This document shows, in pieces, positions 7,383 through 15,079 of a stretch of 38,951 bases of DNA. The notes under the pieces are model-generated. The model saw only the letters and a program-made list of their open reading frames with translations, was not told the origin of the DNA and did not search any database. A program made the translations under genes and the position numbers. Positions within the stretch are counted from its first letter, which is position 1; every line of letters starts with the position of its first letter. Origin of the DNA: Gemmatimonadota bacterium (GTDB lineage: Bacteria > Gemmatimonadota > Gemmatimonadetes > JACCXV01 > JAHWKZ01); assembly GCA_019347645.1 (NCBI GenBank), contig JAHWKZ010000003.1:1-38951 (forward strand), read 5' to 3'.

Positions 7383-8438
7383 TCAGGCCACCGCGAAGCC
7401 CCGTTCCGCCTCGATCGGGAGGATCTCCCGGAGCTCTTCGATCCGGTTCAGGATCCGCTCCGCCTCCGAGGACGCGCCCAGCTCACGGTAGCACATCCGC
7501 GCGTGACGGTAGGTGTCGATGGCGCGAGGGGTGTCGTTCTGCGCGCAGTAGAGGCGCGCGATCGTCACCCACGTCTCCGCCTCGACGAGCGGGGCCTGTC
7601 GGTCGGAGCTGAGGTCGAGCGCCTGGCGAAGGAAGCGCGTCGCCCCGACGAAGTCGTTCAACTCGAGGCTCACCTCGCCCATCAGGCAGAGCGCGCTGGC
7701 GGCCGCCGGTTTGTAGTCGCGCTCCCGCGCGAGATCGAGCGCGGAGCGCGCCAGCGACAGCGCCAGGTGCGGCCGATCCCGGTCCAGCTCCAGCCGCGCC
7801 CGATTGATCGAGACGGTCGTCCCCAGGAACCGGTCCCCCTGGCGCTCGGCCTCCCGCAGGGCGTCCTGGAACGCGGACTCGGCTTCGATGAACCGCCGCT
7901 CGGCGGCGAGGACCAGGCCCAGGTTGTTCATGGTGCGGGCCGGCTCGAACAGCTGGGGGTCCAGGCCGACCTCCGCGAGCTTGCCGGCGACGTACTCCGC
8001 GGCCTCCCGCTCCCCCCGAGCGGCCAGCATGGCCCCTTCGTTGTTCTCGATCTGGGCCAGCAGACGCCGGTCGTCCGCCTCCCGGGCGTGTCGACGCGCC
8101 TCGCGGTACAGCTGGCGCGCGAAGAACCAGTCGCCGCGCTCGAACTCGACCGCGGCGAGGCCGTTGAACGCCTTGCCGATCAGGCTGTTGTCCCGGATCG
8201 CTTCGGCGGCCGCCAGGCTGGCCTCGTACGCCTCCTGCGCGCCGTCCCAGTCCGACATCGCCAGTCGGCAGATCCCCGCGCCCCGGAGCGCGTCGGCACG
8301 GACCGCTCCGGCCCGCGGGTCTCTCTCCGCCTGTCCGGCGATCTCCACGTAGGCCTTCAGCGCCTCTTCGAAACGGCCCTCCTGGCGCGCTGCGTCCGCG
8401 CGGGCCACGGAGAGCCGATCTGACCCGAGGCCCGCCAT
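7383..8438 (-). CDS. TPR-repeat protein (paralogue 1)
   Basis: Repeats with AFNGLAAVEFERGDWFFARQLYREA, TMNNLGLVLAAERRFIEAESAFQDAL; TGATG coupled to the lipoprotein gene upstream. Confidence 0.85.
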   Translation of the reverse strand: MAGLGSDRLSVARADAARQEGRFEEALKAYVEIAGQAERDPRAGAVRADALRGAGICRLAMSDWDGAQEAYEASLAAAEAIRDNSLIGKAFNGLAAVEFERGDWFFARQLYREARRHAREADDRRLLAQIENNEGAMLAARGEREAAEYVAGKLAEVGLDPQLFEPARTMNNLGLVLAAERRFIEAESAFQDALREAERQGDRFLGTTVSINRARLELDRDRPHLALSLARSALDLARERDYKPAAASALCLMGEVSLELNDFVGATRFLRQALDLSSDRQAPLVEAETWVTIARLYCAQNDTPRAIDTYRHARMCYRELGASSEAERILNRIEELREILPIEAERGFAVA

Positions 8439-8965
8439 CAGTCGAGGCAGATGGCGTAGAGGGAGAAGTGCTCGATCGGGACGACGACCGCGCCCAGGCT
8501 TTCGTCGTACGCGCCGCCGATCACCGTCCAGTCGTTCCCCTCGTCGGAGGCCCCGGCGATCGCGAGGCGGGCCGGGTCCACGCCCAACGCCTCGGGATCC
8601 ACCTGGATCGTCAGCGTGGCGGCCGTGTCGAACGTCAGGCCGCTCGGGCCGAACTTGTACCTGAACTGGTCGGTCTCACGTCCCTTCATGGAGATGGAGA
8701 CCTCCTGGACAAGCGCCCCGCTGGGGACATCGAGGCGACCGCCGTCGACGGAGATCGAGCCCCCGTGCGGGCCGATCTTCTGGACCACCGTCTGGGAGGC
8801 GATCTTCAGCCCGCCGGGGACGACGAGCAGGTCGACGCCGTTGACGGTGACCGTCCGGGGTGCCGGCTGCGGGACCCCGGTCGGACCGGGATCGGACTCG
8901 CAGGCGGTGAAGACGAGCGCGAGGGCGAGCGCCGTGGCGCCGTGGATGATCGAACGTAGGGTCAT
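8438..8965 (-). CDS. Secreted lipoprotein with ZU5-like domain (paralogue 1)
   Basis: Lipobox-like ALALVFTACESD; IGPHGGSISVDGGRLDVPSGALVQEVSISMK resembles the ZU5 core; C-term HFSLYAICLD. Confidence 0.75.
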   Translation of the reverse strand: MTLRSIIHGATALALALVFTACESDPGPTGVPQPAPRTVTVNGVDLLVVPGGLKIASQTVVQKIGPHGGSISVDGGRLDVPSGALVQEVSISMKGRETDQFRYKFGPSGLTFDTAATLTIQVDPEALGVDPARLAIAGASDEGNDWTVIGGAYDESLGAVVVPIEHFSLYAICLD

Positions 8966-8987: not shown

Positions 8988-9539
8988 CTACCGGACGCAG
9001 AGGGCGTAGCGCGAGAAGTGCTGGATCTCGACGGACACCGAGTTGGCGGCCGCATCGTATGCGCCGCCGACCACCTGCCAGTCGTCCACGTCGTCGTGGG
9101 CGCCGGCGATCGCGAGCTGCGACGGGTCGATCCCGTCGAGATTCGCTTTGTCGGCCGAGATCGTGAGCACCGCCGCCGGGTCGAACTGCAACCCGTTGGG
9201 GCCGAACTTGAACGACACGTAGCCGTCGTTTTCGGCCTTCATGGTGATCGTCACGTCGTCCGGGATCGATCCCGGGACCACCTCCAGAGAGGCGTCCTTG
9301 TTGCTGATCGTGGCGCCGTCCTGCGCGTTCACCCGCTGCGCCGTCGCAGCATTGTTCGCGACGAACAGCCCGCGCTGGCTGGGGACCACGGTGACGAGTC
9401 GCACGCCGTTGACCTGTACGGTCGGAGAGGCGTCCGGTGGATTGGGAGTGACCGGCACATCGGTCGTCTCGCACGCGGCGAGACCGAGGATGGCCAGCCC
9501 GAGGACCGCCCGAGTGAAGGGCTTGAGGAAGTGGATCAT
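8988..9539 (-). CDS. Secreted lipoprotein with ZU5-like domain (paralogue 2)
   Basis: AILGLAACETTD lipobox; SLEVVPGSIPDDVTITMK; FKFGPNGLQFDPAAVLTISADKANLDGIDPSQLAIAGAHDDVDDWQVVGGAYD; C-term HFSRYALCVR; GAGGAGG SD upstream. Confidence 0.8.
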   Translation of the reverse strand: MIHFLKPFTRAVLGLAILGLAACETTDVPVTPNPPDASPTVQVNGVRLVTVVPSQRGLFVANNAATAQRVNAQDGATISNKDASLEVVPGSIPDDVTITMKAENDGYVSFKFGPNGLQFDPAAVLTISADKANLDGIDPSQLAIAGAHDDVDDWQVVGGAYDAAANSVSVEIQHFSRYALCVR

Positions 9540-9601
9540 TGGCGACCTCCTCAGGTTTGGAACGATGTCCGCTCCGGCGAATTCCGGAGTCGGGACGATC
9601 G

Positions 9602-9696
9602 GTCGGGCGGCCCGGCCGTCCGTCCGGAAGACTTCTCCGGCGAGGACCCGTCGGCTTTGCGCCCCCCGCTCTCACGGGGTTTGCCCTTTTCCGAGG
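9602..9696 (-). promoter_or_regulatory. GEMM-I / cyclic di-GMP-I riboswitch aptamer A
   Basis: RNA: CUCGGAAAAGGGCAAACCCCGUGAGAGCGGGGGGCGCAAAGCCGACGGGUCCUCGCCGGAGAAGUCUUCCGGACGGACGGCCGGGCCGCCCGA. Conserved GGGCAAACC and CGCAAAGCC, GAGA-loop hairpin, P3 arm, P1 closure UCGG/CCGA. Confidence 0.85.
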
Positions 9697-9719
9697 ACGT
9701 CGTCGCGCCCTATTAGCAA

Positions 9720-9735
9720 TGCAATCCACGTACCA
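9720..9735 (-). promoter_or_regulatory. Sigma-54 (-24/-12) promoter A
   Basis: Minus strand TGGTACGTGGATTGCA; GG-N10-GC spacing; one mismatch to TGGCACGN4TTGCW; predicted start G at ~9709, 13 nt before the aptamer. Confidence 0.75.
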
Positions 9736-9921: not shown

Positions 9922-11529
9922 TCAGGAGCGGGAGAGCTCCTCGTCGATCAAATCGGCGGAAACCTCGGGGAGCGAAGCGAACGTCTGGGCGAGCTCCTCC
10001 GGGCGCATGGCGCGCCCGGTGGCCGTCTTCTTCCCCACCCGATCCTTCCCGAACGACTCCCGGCGGGCGATCTCGACGAAGACGCCGGTGATCTCGGGAT
10101 CGGAGAGCGTCCCCCCGCTCATCTCGAGGTAGGTGAGGGTCTGCTCCCGGCTCCAGGGGTCGCGATAGGGACGGGCCGTACTCAGGGCGTCGAAGACGTC
10201 CGCGATCAGCAGGATCCGGGCCCCGAGGGGGATCCTCTCGCCCGCGAGGCCGTCGGGATAGCCCGTGCCGTCGTAGCGCTCGTGGTGGCCCCGGATCATC
10301 GACTCCACGTCCCACGGGAGTTCGAATCGCTTCAGGTGCTCGACCGCCAGCTCGGGGTGACGCTGGATCTCGGCCATCTCCCGCTCCGTCAACCGCCCTT
10401 CCTTGTTGAGGATCGCGGAATCGATCTCCAGCTTTCCGATGTCGTGGAGGTACCCGGCGACCAGGATCCCCTTCATCTGGTCGGGGCCGAACCCGAGGTC
10501 GCAGGCGATCGCCACCGCGTACTCGGCGACCCGGGCGCTGTGACCGTACAGGTAGGCCCCGCCGCGGGACTCCACCTGCCGCCCGAGCCGCTCGACGAGC
10601 TGCACGACCAGCGTCTCGAGGTCCCCGATCTTCTCCTCGAGGTCGGCCAGGTCGTGGGCCGCCTCCAGGAGCCGGAACAGCTTGAGGCTCCGGGCGAAGC
10701 TCTCCAGCGCGCTCCGATGCCTTCCTTTGGAGAGGTGGAGGTGGCCGAGCTCGCGCAGCGCCTCGGCCTCGGTGAGCGGAGCGTCCAGCTTCCTCCCCTG
10801 CCGGGCCGCCCGCTCGAAGTGCGCCCGGGCGAGTGCGATCTTGCCGCTCTTGCGAAAGATCTCGCCGTAGTGGCGGTACGCCTCCGCGATCCCCAGGGCG
10901 TCGTTCACCACCGTCAGCCGCTCGACCGCCTCGTCACAAGCGTCCCTCGCCTCGGACAGGCGCTCGGCTTCGATCTCGACCTCGGCGGCGTTCAGCGCGA
11001 TCAGTCCCACCAGCGCGTCATCGCCCGCCTCGATGGCGAGCCGGCGCGCCATGCGGTAGGAGCGGCTCGCCCCGCTCCAGCGCTTCTGGTCGGCGAGCAG
11101 GATCCCGAGGTTGTTCAGGGCCTGGGCCTCGCCGGCGAGGTCGCCGGCGCGATGGTGCGCGCGGCGCCCCTTCCAGTAGTACTCGAGGGCCCTCTCGAAG
11201 CGGCCGCGAACGTTGGCGACCGCTCCCAGGTTCAGCAGGGCGGCTCCCATCGCGGACGCGGAGTCGAGGGCGCGGGCGACTTCGAGCGCGTCCAGGAAGC
11301 GGCGTTCGGCGTCCCGGAGGTTGCCGCGCTCGAACTCCACGATCCCCAGCTCCGACAGGAACTCGGTGGTGGCGGACGCGGCTCCGTCAAGGACCGCCTG
11401 ACGCAGCCCGAGCACGGCACAGGCCTCGGCCTCGGACCAGCGGGCCTCGCGGCGGGCGGTGGAGGCCTTCTGCCGCAGGGCGGAAAGGGTCGGTCGGGGC
11501 GCTCCCCAGTGGTACGTCCGGAACGGCAT
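9922..11529 (-). CDS. TPR + HD-GYP protein (predicted cyclic dinucleotide phosphodiesterase)
   Basis: N-terminal TPRs (ALNNLGILLADQKRW); YLHDIGK...HHERYDGTGYPDGLAGE...ILLIADVFDALSTARPYR is a full HD-GYP signature. Confidence 0.92.
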   Translation of the reverse strand: MPFRTYHWGAPRPTLSALRQKASTARREARWSEAEACAVLGLRQAVLDGAASATTEFLSELGIVEFERGNLRDAERRFLDALEVARALDSASAMGAALLNLGAVANVRGRFERALEYYWKGRRAHHRAGDLAGEAQALNNLGILLADQKRWSGASRSYRMARRLAIEAGDDALVGLIALNAAEVEIEAERLSEARDACDEAVERLTVVNDALGIAEAYRHYGEIFRKSGKIALARAHFERAARQGRKLDAPLTEAEALRELGHLHLSKGRHRSALESFARSLKLFRLLEAAHDLADLEEKIGDLETLVVQLVERLGRQVESRGGAYLYGHSARVAEYAVAIACDLGFGPDQMKGILVAGYLHDIGKLEIDSAILNKEGRLTEREMAEIQRHPELAVEHLKRFELPWDVESMIRGHHERYDGTGYPDGLAGERIPLGARILLIADVFDALSTARPYRDPWSREQTLTYLEMSGGTLSDPEITGVFVEIARRESFGKDRVGKKTATGRAMRPEELAQTFASLPEVSADLIDEELSRS

Positions 11530-11533
11530 CACC

Positions 11534-11596
11534 TTACCGGACGCAGAGCGCATAGCGGATCGCCCGCGGCATCGTGTTCGGCCACAGAATCGACAT
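11534..11596 (-). CDS. 20-aa micro-ORF MSILWPNTMPRAIRYALCVR
   Basis: GGAGG 7 nt before the ATG, TGATG overlap with the upstream TPR gene, TAA a few nt before the HD-GYP ATG; C-term RYALCVR identical to lipoprotein tails at 8988 and 12715. Confidence 0.5.
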   Translation of the reverse strand: MSILWPNTMPRAIRYALCVR

Positions 11597-12642
11597 CACG
11601 GCACCTCCATCGTGGGGGCTTCGAGCGCGGCCAGGCGCCTCTCGAGCCGCTCGGCTTCCGCCGTCGACCCGAGGGAGAGGTAGCATCGTCGAGATTGCCG
11701 CAATGCCCGTGCCGCTTCGTCGAACCGCTCCCGAGCGAGCTCGAGCTCCGCGAGCTCCGTCCAGGTCTCGGCCTCGGCCAGTGGCACGCGTCCGTCGGCG
11801 CTCCGTTCCAGCGCCTCTCGGAGGCAGGCGCGAGCCTCGTCCCAACGGCCTCCGGCGCGGGCGACCGCGCCCTGGAGGCAGACGGCGTCGGCGGCCAGCG
11901 GACCGTTCCCCAGCCGGGCGGCGATCTCGGCCGCCGTCGCCGCGACCGCGTGCGCCCGGATCGGCTCGTCGATGACGAGCGCGAGCCGGCCGCGGTTGAT
12001 CATCACCGTGGCGGCGAGCGTCAAGTCTCCGGTGCGCTTGCATTCCTCCAGCGCCCGGCCGTAGAACGCGTCCGCCTCGGCGACGCGGCCGTCCTCCATC
12101 AGGATCATTCCGAGGTTGTTCATGGCGCGCGCCCCGCACGGATGCCTCTCGAGCTCCTCGAAGTGTCGAAGGGCCCGGCGGAAGTGCTCCTCGGACCGCG
12201 CACGTTCGCCTCGGGCGGCCCACAGGGCGCCTTCGTTGTTCTCGATCTCCATCAGCAGGGAGAGATCCTCGACGCCTCCGGCGCTTTCGCGCGCGGCGCG
12301 GTAGCGGCGCTCGGCTTCCTCCCAGTTGCCGCGCTCGAACTCGAGCGCTCCCCGGGCGTTGTCGGCCAGCGCCAGCCGTCCGGCGTCTCCCATGCGCTCG
12401 GCGATCAGCCGACTCTCGGCCAGGTCGCGGAGCGCCTCCTGCCACTCGCCGAGGCGGATCCGGACGATCGCCGCGCCCCGAAGCGCGTCGGCTTCGGCGG
12501 CGGCCCCTTCCGGATGGAACCGGGCCGTCTCGACCGCGTCCTGGTAGGCGGTCAGGGCCTCTTCCCATCGCTCGCTCCGAGCGGCCGCCTCGGCGCGGGC
12601 GATCGCCGCGCGTGGCGTTTTGCTATCGTGTTCCTCGATCAT
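11596..12642 (-). CDS. TPR-repeat protein (paralogue 2)
   Basis: ARGALEFERGNWEEAERRYRAA, AMNNLGMILMEDGRVAEADAFYGRAL; same plan as 7383-8438. Confidence 0.85.
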   Translation of the reverse strand: MIEEHDSKTPRAAIARAEAAARSERWEEALTAYQDAVETARFHPEGAAAEADALRGAAIVRIRLGEWQEALRDLAESRLIAERMGDAGRLALADNARGALEFERGNWEEAERRYRAARESAGGVEDLSLLMEIENNEGALWAARGERARSEEHFRRALRHFEELERHPCGARAMNNLGMILMEDGRVAEADAFYGRALEECKRTGDLTLAATVMINRGRLALVIDEPIRAHAVAATAAEIAARLGNGPLAADAVCLQGAVARAGGRWDEARACLREALERSADGRVPLAEAETWTELAELELARERFDEAARALRQSRRCYLSLGSTAEAERLERRLAALEAPTMEVP

Positions 12643-12714: not shown

Positions 12715-13269
12715 CTACCGGACACAGAGGGCGTAGCGCGAGAAGTGGAGGATCGGAACGGTAACGCTGTTGGTGAGCGGATCGTAGATCCCGCCGATCA
12801 CCTGCCAGTCGTCCACATCGTCCGAGGCCCCCGCGATCGCCAGCCTCGTCGGATCGATGTCGTCGAGGTCCGCCTTGTCGGCCGAGATGATCAGGGTCGC
12901 CGCCGGGTCGAACACCAGGCCGTTCGGGCCGAACTCGAAGCCCAGGATGTCGTCCTCGTCCTCCACCTCCATCCTGATAGTGGTGGCCTCGGGAATGGAG
13001 TTGGGCTGGACGATGAGCTGAGCGTCCTCGGCCGTCAGGGTCGCGCCTTCGGATACGTCCACCAGATCGACCTCCACCTCGTCATCGGCGAGGAACAGAC
13101 CGCGGGCCTCCGGCCGGACGGTGACGAGCTGCACGCCGTTGAAGGTCACGGTCGGTGGATCCGCCTCCGGCGCCGCGGGGGTGAAGCCCTGATCCTCGCA
13201 TGCGACGAGTCCGAGCACGGCCAGGGCGAGGATCGCCCGGCGGAAGGGCTTGATGAGGGAGCGGGTCAT
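12715..13269 (-). CDS. Secreted lipoprotein with ZU5-like domain (paralogue 3)
   Basis: AVLGLVACEDQG lipobox; FEFGPNGLVFDPAATLIISADKADLDDIDPTRLAIAGASDDVDDWQVIGGIYD; C-term HFSRYALCVR. Confidence 0.8.
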   Translation of the reverse strand: MTRSLIKPFRRAILALAVLGLVACEDQGFTPAAPEADPPTVTFNGVQLVTVRPEARGLFLADDEVEVDLVDVSEGATLTAEDAQLIVQPNSIPEATTIRMEVEDEDDILGFEFGPNGLVFDPAATLIISADKADLDDIDPTRLAIAGASDDVDDWQVIGGIYDPLTNSVTVPILHFSRYALCVR

Positions 13270-13331: not shown

Positions 13332-13428
13332 GCTCGGGCGGCCCGGCCGTCCGTCCGGATGGCTTCTCCGGCGAGGACCCGTCGGCTTTGCGCCCCCCGC
13401 TCTCACGGGGTTTGCCCTTGACCGAGGA
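13332..13428 (-). promoter_or_regulatory. GEMM-I / cyclic di-GMP-I riboswitch aptamer B
   Basis: RNA: CCUCGGUCAAGGGCAAACCCCGUGAGAGCGGGGGGCGCAAAGCCGACGGGUCCUCGCCGGAGAAGCCAUCCGGACGGACGGCCGGGCCGCCCGAG; P1 CUCGG/CCGAG; same core as aptamer A. Confidence 0.85.
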
Positions 13429-13464
13429 TGTCGTCGGCCCCATGACGGGGCCGCCCTACTCTTC

Positions 13465-13480
13465 AGCAACCTTCGTACCA
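13465..13480 (-). promoter_or_regulatory. Sigma-54 (-24/-12) promoter B
   Basis: Minus strand TGGTACGAAGGTTGCT; GG-N10-GC spacing; predicted start G at ~13454. Confidence 0.75.
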
Positions 13481-13548
13481 GGTCCTTGCCGGCCCGTCGA
13501 AGCTGTTGGAAGACATAGACTTAGGCTTGCAGGGAAGATTTCATCGAG

Positions 13549-13561
13549 GCTCCCGAGCCGG
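13549..13561. promoter_or_regulatory. Candidate upstream activator site B (inverted repeat GGCTCCCGAGCC)
   Basis: GGCTC-CC-GAGCC inverted repeat containing TCCCGAGCCGG at 13551-13561, 71 bp upstream of the sigma-54 element. Confidence 0.5.
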
Positions 13562-13687
13562 GGCGGGAGTGTAACGCATCGTTCGACCCGGATCCCCGGG
13601 GGACCCGGCTAACCCGTTGATCGCCAGCAGGATGAGAGGAAAGCGGTGCGCCCGGAACGTTTCGTCGCAGTCGGAACGAAACGTGGA

Positions 13688-15079
13688 TCAGGAGGGGGTT
13701 TCGGCGGGCTCCAGGTCGTACTTGTCGATCTTCCGCAGCAGTCGGGGACGGCTGATCTCGAGCTCCCGCGCGGTCTGGGACTTGTTCCATTCGTTGCGCT
13801 CGAGCGCGTGGGCGATGACCTGGCGCTCGAACTCGTCGAACGGGAGCCCCTCCGGCGGGAGCTCGATGACCAGTCGGTCGACCTCGTCCCCCGCCGTGCG
13901 CCGGCTCCGGTCGGACCCGGCCACGTTGGGAAGCGTGATCCGGGGGCCCTCCCCGAGCAGCACCGCGCGCTCGATGGTGTTCTTGAGCTCGCGAATGTTT
14001 CCGGGCCATGAATAGGCGTGGAGGAACTCGCGGGACTCCTTCGATAGAGGCCGGTCGGGTTTGCCGTACTGTTCCGCGTAGCGCGCGGCGAAGTGCTCGG
14101 CGAGCAGCTCCACGTCGTCGCCTCGCTCCCTGAGGGGGGGCAGCTCCACCGCGACGACGTTGAGGCGGTAATAGAGGTCGCTACGGAAGAGCCCCTGTCC
14201 GATCGCCTGCTCCAGGTCGCGGCTCGTCGCCGCGATGATCCGCATGCTGACCGATACCTCTCGGGTGCCCCCGAGCCGACGGAAGCGCTTCTCCTCGATC
14301 GCCCGCAACAGCTTTCCCTGGAGGTTCAGCGACATGTCGCCGAGCTCGTCGAGGAACAACGTGCCGCCGTCGGCGAGCTGGAGGAGACCCGGCTTGGACG
14401 ACTTGGCGTCGGTGAAGGCGCCTTTCTCGTAGCCGAAGAGCTCCGCCTCGAGGAGGTTCTCGGGGATGGCGGTGCAGTTCACCTCGATGAACGGCTGGTC
14501 GTGCTGCGCCGACTGGTAGTGGATCGCCCGGGCTACGAGCTCCTTGCCGGTCCCGGTCTCGCCGCGGATGAGTACGGTCCTGGCACCCGACTCGATCACC
14601 TTGCGTACCACGCCGAGAACGCCCCGCATCGCCTCGCAGCGGGCGATCATGTCGGGGAATCCGAGCAGGGTGATCGGGCCCTCCCTGGACGTACCGTCCC
14701 CGTTGCCCCAGAGCTCGAGCTTCGTCTCGACCACCGCCTCCCCGATCCGTTCCCGGTCGCGTGGCAAAATGCAGTACTCGTCGGCGCCGGCGGTGAGAGC
14801 GTGGACGGCCGAATCGGTGGACGGATCGCGGGTCACGGCCACCACCCGCGGCCGCTCCGACAGCGCGTTCAGCTCGGCCAGGATCCGGTCGACCTCCTCC
14901 CCCACGTAGTCGAGGTCGAGGACTACGAAGCGCGGCAGCGGCGAGAGCTTGGGATCGCCGACGGAAGCCTCGCGGTGGACGAACACGCACTCGATCGATT
15001 CCTCGGACGGGACCAGGTCCACGTATTCGGCCGCGGGGCCGAAGACGGCCACGTGGAGAGGGATCGGCGATCGCGCCAT
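13688..15079 (-). CDS. Sigma-54-dependent transcriptional activator with degenerate receiver, AAA+ and Fis-type HTH
   Basis: VLIRGETGTGKELVARAIHYQS (Walker A), GYEKGAFTDAKSSKPGLLQLADGGTLFLDELGD, LFRSDLYYRLNVV, NKSQTARELEISRPRLLRKI (HTH). Confidence 0.93.
   Translation of the reverse strand: MARSPIPLHVAVFGPAAEYVDLVPSEESIECVFVHREASVGDPKLSPLPRFVVLDLDYVGEEVDRILAELNALSERPRVVAVTRDPSTDSAVHALTAGADEYCILPRDRERIGEAVVETKLELWGNGDGTSREGPITLLGFPDMIARCEAMRGVLGVVRKVIESGARTVLIRGETGTGKELVARAIHYQSAQHDQPFIEVNCTAIPENLLEAELFGYEKGAFTDAKSSKPGLLQLADGGTLFLDELGDMSLNLQGKLLRAIEEKRFRRLGGTREVSVSMRIIAATSRDLEQAIGQGLFRSDLYYRLNVVAVELPPLRERGDDVELLAEHFAARYAEQYGKPDRPLSKESREFLHAYSWPGNIRELKNTIERAVLLGEGPRITLPNVAGSDRSRRTAGDEVDRLVIELPPEGLPFDEFERQVIAHALERNEWNKSQTARELEISRPRLLRKIDKYDLEPAETPS

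Follow-up and report, generated by a model that had tools for sequence, protein, structure and literature searches.

The question raised by this locus is whether the minus-strand RNA that begins near position 9,709 of the window (the whole stretch of 38,951 nucleotides of Gemmatimonadota DNA analysed here) is a riboswitch placed on a σ54 transcript, and what such an arrangement would do for the genes behind it. Judging from the sequence, we consider it likely that an mRNA transcribed from a σ54 promoter starts with a canonical c-di-GMP-I (GEMM-I) riboswitch and that expression is gated twice, the downstream genes probably needing two signals at once. The features of the locus are listed in Table 1.

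Table 1. Features of the two transcription units and their leaders in the window.
Feature	Position	Strand	Evidence
c-di-GMP-I (GEMM-I) aptamer A	9603..9695	-	RF01051, 52.9 bits vs gathering cut-off 35, full length 1-87
c-di-GMP-I aptamer B (G20, A47)	13334..13426	-	RF01051, 47.9 bits
σ54 -24/-12 promoter of transcript A, TGGTACGTGGATTGCA	9720..9735	-	Exact consensus, 0 mismatches; predicted +1 at 9709
σ54 -24/-12 promoter of transcript B, TGGTACGAAGGTTGCT	13465..13480	-	Exact consensus; predicted +1 at 13454
Platform hairpin between aptamer A and Shine-Dalgarno, CGAUCGUCC..CUCCGG-loop-CCGGAG..GGAC	9563..9601	-	Folds; 93.7% A/B identity
P1 5' strand UCCUCGG, candidate anti-Shine-Dalgarno	9691..9697	-	Duplex with Shine-Dalgarno region -21.5 kcal/mol, reached by 0.6% of shuffles
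Shine-Dalgarno GAGGAGG of lipoprotein A1	9546..9552	-	Sequence
Lipoprotein A1 (lipobox LAAC), ZU5-like fold	8988..9539	-	ORF, AlphaFold2 model, Foldseek
Lipoprotein A2, paralog of A1	8438..8965	-	44.7% identical to A1, alignment
TPR protein of unit A	7383..8438	-	PF13424, 1.8e-27
Lipoprotein B	12715..13269	-	60% identical to A1
TPR protein of unit B	11596..12642	-	PF13424, 6.6e-29
TPR + HD-GYP protein (HDIGK ... HHERYDGTGYP)	9922..11553	-	PF13487, 1.3e-34; motif read in sequence
σ54 enhancer-binding protein (receiver-like N-terminus, AAA+, Fis HTH; GAFTDA loop)	13688..15079	-	PF00158, 9.6e-67; PF02954, 7.8e-13

The sequence-only reading had assigned the leader to the GEMM-I class, and this call was borne out by the covariance model RF01051, against which aptamer A scored 52.9 bits and a second copy, aptamer B, 47.9 bits, both above the gathering cut-off of 35 bits. 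When the window was scanned against all of Rfam (cmscan), A and B were the sole matches, A being assigned to RF01051 with an E-value of 1e-07. The assembly scanned is a 1.42-Mb Gemmatimonadota MAG that is 55% complete, and A and B were the only RF01051 copies in it (E-values within their own genome of 9.1e-10 and 1.5e-8, respectively). The individual elements that had been named could also be located in A: GGGCAAACC, GCGCAAAGCC, the CCGGA/UCCGG pairing, the 3' GGCCGGGCCGCC, a hairpin with a GNRA loop (CCCCGU-GAGA-GCGGGG, GAGA being the P2 tetraloop in the RF01051 alignment), P1 formed by UCGG (9694-9691) and CCGA (9606-9603), and its extension by GACGA (9704-9700) and UCGUC (9598-9594), a pairing that is recovered as well when the RNA is folded with P1 imposed. 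Like the Vibrio Vc2 type of RF01051, A is laid out as P1/P2/P3 with a GNRA loop, carries G20 and A47 and matches the covariance model over its full length; particular to this locus are the σ54 promoter, with about 14 nt separating its predicted start from the aptamer, the two near-identical copies in adjacent units and the predicted translational platform with the P1 5' strand as anti-Shine-Dalgarno. The aptamer itself is unremarkable, an ordinary member added to a large known riboswitch class.

The ligand had been given as either c-di-GMP or cGAMP, and the G at position 20 points to the former. On the basis of the RF01051 alignment, both copies carry G20 and A47 (Vc2 numbering), which we take to be the ligand-contacting residues. 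In A these presumably correspond to 9685 and 9658, and C92 probably to 9607, the least certain of the three placements (numbering mapped by eye). Because A and B have G20 and A47, c-di-GMP rather than cGAMP would be expected as their ligand. That A is instead a GEMM-Ib-type sensor of 3',3'-cGAMP or of another cyclic dinucleotide appears very improbable. A20 is common among Gemmatimonadota GEMM-I aptamers (24 of 69 in the first set described below), so that members of the class may use cGAMP as a signal, and A scores 55.9 bits against the c-di-GMP-I-GGC model (RF03167), just below its cut-off of 59. However, A20 is absent from both copies, and cGAMP specificity was rejected for them; RF03167 membership was rejected as well, since A falls below the cut-off and has A47 where the consensus of that model has G. 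The GEMM-Ib/cGAMP riboswitches of Geobacter, which have A20 and differ in this from the window copies, share their fold and clan, as RF03167 shares the clan, and A20 relatives exist in the same bacterial class.

Upstream of each aptamer, the σ54 consensus applied (TGGYACG-N4-TTGCW) is matched exactly, as TGGTACG-TGGA-TTGCA in promoter A (9735-9720, minus strand) and as TGGTACG-N4-TTGCT in promoter B (13480-13465, minus strand). With the C of TTGC placed at -12, the start sites, which are predicted and unmapped, put the beginning of the RF01051 match at +15 (A) and +29 (B), the distances from σ54 element to aptamer being 24 and 38 nt. The earlier placement of the aptamer at the very 5' end of a σ54 transcript agrees with this arrangement, the inferred +1 of A coinciding with the end coordinate then given, and the proposed spacing of about 13 nt after the start was close. 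The further statement that the leader is essentially all riboswitch holds if the expression platform is counted, as the aptamer takes up 93 nt and the conserved platform 63 nt of an untranslated region of about 170 nt. In copy B, start site and aptamer are separated by an extra hairpin, GGCCCCGUCAUGGGGCC. The two exact elements were the only ones in the window, compared with none in shuffled windows, and only three perfect elements were found in the 1.42-Mb assembly, two of them being those upstream of A and B. The third (G000:C66:50930-50945, minus strand) is followed, after about 170 nt, by another σ54-activator homologue (C66:49934-50764, minus strand).

A gene for an activator lies upstream of promoter B, with its end 207 nt away. 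The N-terminus of its product is a degenerate receiver-like region not recognised by Pfam, and its loop reads GAFTDA in place of GAFTGA, a variant deemed compatible with activity in Desulfovibrio vulgaris (PMC4641369). The locus thus resembles NtrC-type σ54 systems in its exact -24/-12 elements with N4 spacer and in the nearby gene for an AAA+/Fis HTH activator, and differs from them in that the promoter feeds a riboswitch leader and the activator has GAFTDA. No rpoN gene was detected in this assembly (55% complete), and four of the five family genomes have one; GGDEF proteins are present in all five. No close copy of the activator was found beside the operons of two relatives from its family, G002 and G004. 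In these genomes, a homologue (G002:C8:76169-76732, minus strand; G004:C243:425-973, plus strand) matched only in the receiver-like domain and the Fis HTH, in a 238-aa frame apparently without the AAA+ domain. A search for an enhancer site shared upstream of both promoters returned only weak common words and unrelated dyads. Directly after the activator gene, the stretch 13481-13687 (minus strand) contains a perfect 9-bp inverted repeat, ACGTTTCGT-N10-ACGAAACGT, about 204 nt upstream of promoter B, which is a candidate activator site or terminator.

To see the pairing in a wider context, GEMM-I aptamers were collected from other genomes; among Gemmatimonadota, 155 of 301 genomes contained them. 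In a first set of 69 aptamers (the window pair included), σ54-like sites within 0-59 nt upstream were 37-fold enriched relative to elsewhere in the same loci (25 upstream against 10 in a search space 15 times as large, P=1e-22; antisense, 0), and a second set of 65 aptamers outside the first gave a 14-fold excess (P=4e-10). It should be noted that the σ54 score was hand-weighted and that shared ancestry inflates these P-values and those of the other aptamer sets. Altogether, 39 of 134 Gemmatimonadota aptamers had such a site with the N4 spacer, compared with 1-8 of 134 for wrong spacers (0-3 and 5-9). A set from the phylum of a deltaproteobacterial MAG showed a 27-fold enrichment (11 of 35 aptamers, P=6e-10), although three of the aptamers come from this very MAG, which a σ54-GEMM pattern scan had picked, and two more from a second MAG of that kind. 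Among 22 gammaproteobacterial aptamers, 2 had a σ54 site. Given the spacer control and the independent phyla, chance coupling is implausible. Both G20 and A20 aptamers were coupled, and on this sequence evidence the association of σ54 with GEMM-I looks general.

The pattern scan itself returned 30 stretches across genomes. Eighteen of them came from Pseudomonas and were judged to be conserved chance matches, the only one scanned (L062) lacking RF01051. Among 13 pattern loci examined by cmscan, 11 contained real GEMM-I-type aptamers, and no aptamer was detected in L062 and L082. In one Gemmatimonadota genome (G008), three tandem A20 (cGAMP-like) GEMM-I aptamers lie upstream of lipoproteins (L035 on C36 and L031 on C3), L035 having a σ54-like site ahead of the first; these tandem aptamers suggest cGAMP signalling in this phylum.

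These comparisons bear on the possibility that the σ54 element is decorative, the leader being made from another promoter and the riboswitch alone regulating. Promoters A and B are predicted from sequence, and rpoN was not seen in the incomplete assembly, which would fit such a view. However, both copies have a perfect element, which hardly occurs elsewhere in the genome, the enrichment is class-wide and spacer-specific, and an activator gene adjoins. A decorative element therefore seems improbable, and the σ54 promoter is retained as the probable source of the leader.

A and B share 95.7% identity in the aptamer and 93.7% from the aptamer end to the ATG, compared with 70.6% in the coding regions. 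They are old duplicates, and the conservation of the whole leader between them (or its gene conversion) argues that aptamer and platform work together. A decayed, non-functional aptamer in A could be imagined from the fact that both copies score lower than the top aptamers of Gemmatimonadota (as high as 82 bits), but with a full-length match, the key residues retained and aptamer and platform conserved far better than the coding regions, it is extremely improbable.

With regard to the switch itself, an intrinsic terminator was rejected and a translational platform preferred, because no U-run could be read behind the platform hairpin. The P1 5' strand (CCUCGG plus flank) is complementary to the Shine-Dalgarno region in A, B and the operons of the two relatives (G004:C193 and G002:C29). 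The corresponding duplexes have energies of -21.5 (A), -18.5 (B), -18.1 (G004:C193) and -21.4 kcal/mol (G002:C29), reached by 0.6%, 5.3%, 1.6% and 0.1% of shuffles, respectively; the signal for B alone is marginal (about 5%), and with A and B being duplicates and G002 and G004 belonging to one genus, these represent at most two independent cases. Since P1 and this duplex are mutually exclusive, the ligand is predicted to free the Shine-Dalgarno, and a translational switch turned ON by c-di-GMP is the reading that we moderately favour. The anti-Shine-Dalgarno claim is limited to this operon family, because a class-wide rule was unsupported (own vs swapped pairs, P=0.17).

The same riboswitch could also have OFF polarity, with P1 stabilised by the ligand and the Shine-Dalgarno hidden by early coding sequence or a downstream platform, so that c-di-GMP represses translation. 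Folds of A and B that include the coding start pair the Shine-Dalgarno with early codons in either state, even with P1 enforced, and thus offer no clean ON state; in G002 and G004, a second anti-Shine-Dalgarno (CCUCG) after the aptamer can mask the site when P1 is formed, which makes polarity there ambiguous. On the other hand, the alternative duplex is kept in two lineages and is stronger than shuffles, and the platform hairpin of A and B leaves the Shine-Dalgarno uncaptured when the coding region is omitted from the fold. We regard OFF polarity as rather unlikely, and the ON switch is kept below. The free-energy gaps amount to 5-15 kcal/mol in favour of the unbound fold.

The genes served by the two leaders are related. 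Unit A encodes two lipoproteins followed by a TPR protein, and unit B a lipoprotein, a TPR protein and a TPR/HD-GYP protein, the last being a likely c-di-GMP phosphodiesterase as predicted from its sequence. The lipoproteins A1, A2 and B constitute one paralogous family without a domain in Pfam, and their profile gave no credible match to PDB sequences; with an AlphaFold2 model of A1 (pLDDT 76), Foldseek retrieved ankyrin ZU5 domains (best E-value 5.2e-4, TM about 0.5). The plan is kept in both relatives: G004:C193 has σ54-GEMM, TPR, lipoprotein and TPR/HD-GYP, and G002:C29 has PAS-PAS-GGDEF-EAL, then σ54-GEMM, TPR, five lipoproteins and TPR/HD-GYP. Thus, a c-di-GMP sensor and a predicted c-di-GMP breaker appear to be tied to one locus, which in G002 a GGDEF-EAL protein also adjoins. 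The gene for this PAS-PAS-GGDEF-EAL protein (L092:8506-10623, plus strand) lies directly upstream of the G002 operon and is missing from that place in G004.

We propose that RNA polymerase-σ54 would open the promoter only once an ATP-driven activator, most likely the protein of 13688-15079, has fired, and that the nascent leader would then fold as an aptamer. Binding of c-di-GMP would stabilise P1 (UCGG/CCGA) and leave the Shine-Dalgarno free; without the ligand, the P1 5' strand UCCUCGG would pair with CCUGAGGAGG and translation would be blocked. Copy B, upstream of A, would work in the same way and drive the operon ending in the TPR/HD-GYP protein, and by breaking down c-di-GMP this protein may provide negative feedback.

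The recurrent pairing of σ54 with the riboswitch is the more interesting part of these results than the aptamer. We see a slightly better than even chance that GEMM-I riboswitches of Gemmatimonadota and deltaproteobacterial lineages sit systematically on σ54 promoters as a recurrent two-key AND gate, in which initiation is controlled by an external signal through the ATPase activator and the nascent leader by c-di-GMP (or cGAMP), serving lipoproteins and other surface proteins and, here, an HD-GYP feedback arm. No description of such coupling was found in the openly licensed literature, subscription papers lying outside this search. Among bacterial promoters, only the σ54 type stays silent, with almost no leak, as long as no activator has spent ATP, so that the RNA sensor would act solely on transcripts made on demand. 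A preferential pairing of c-di-GMP riboswitches with σ54 would provide a testable rule for the way in which the regulons of σ54 and of c-di-GMP intersect at the cell surface. In uncultured phyla, it may also serve as a simple means of predicting where σ54 transcripts start and which genes belong to GEMM-I regulons.
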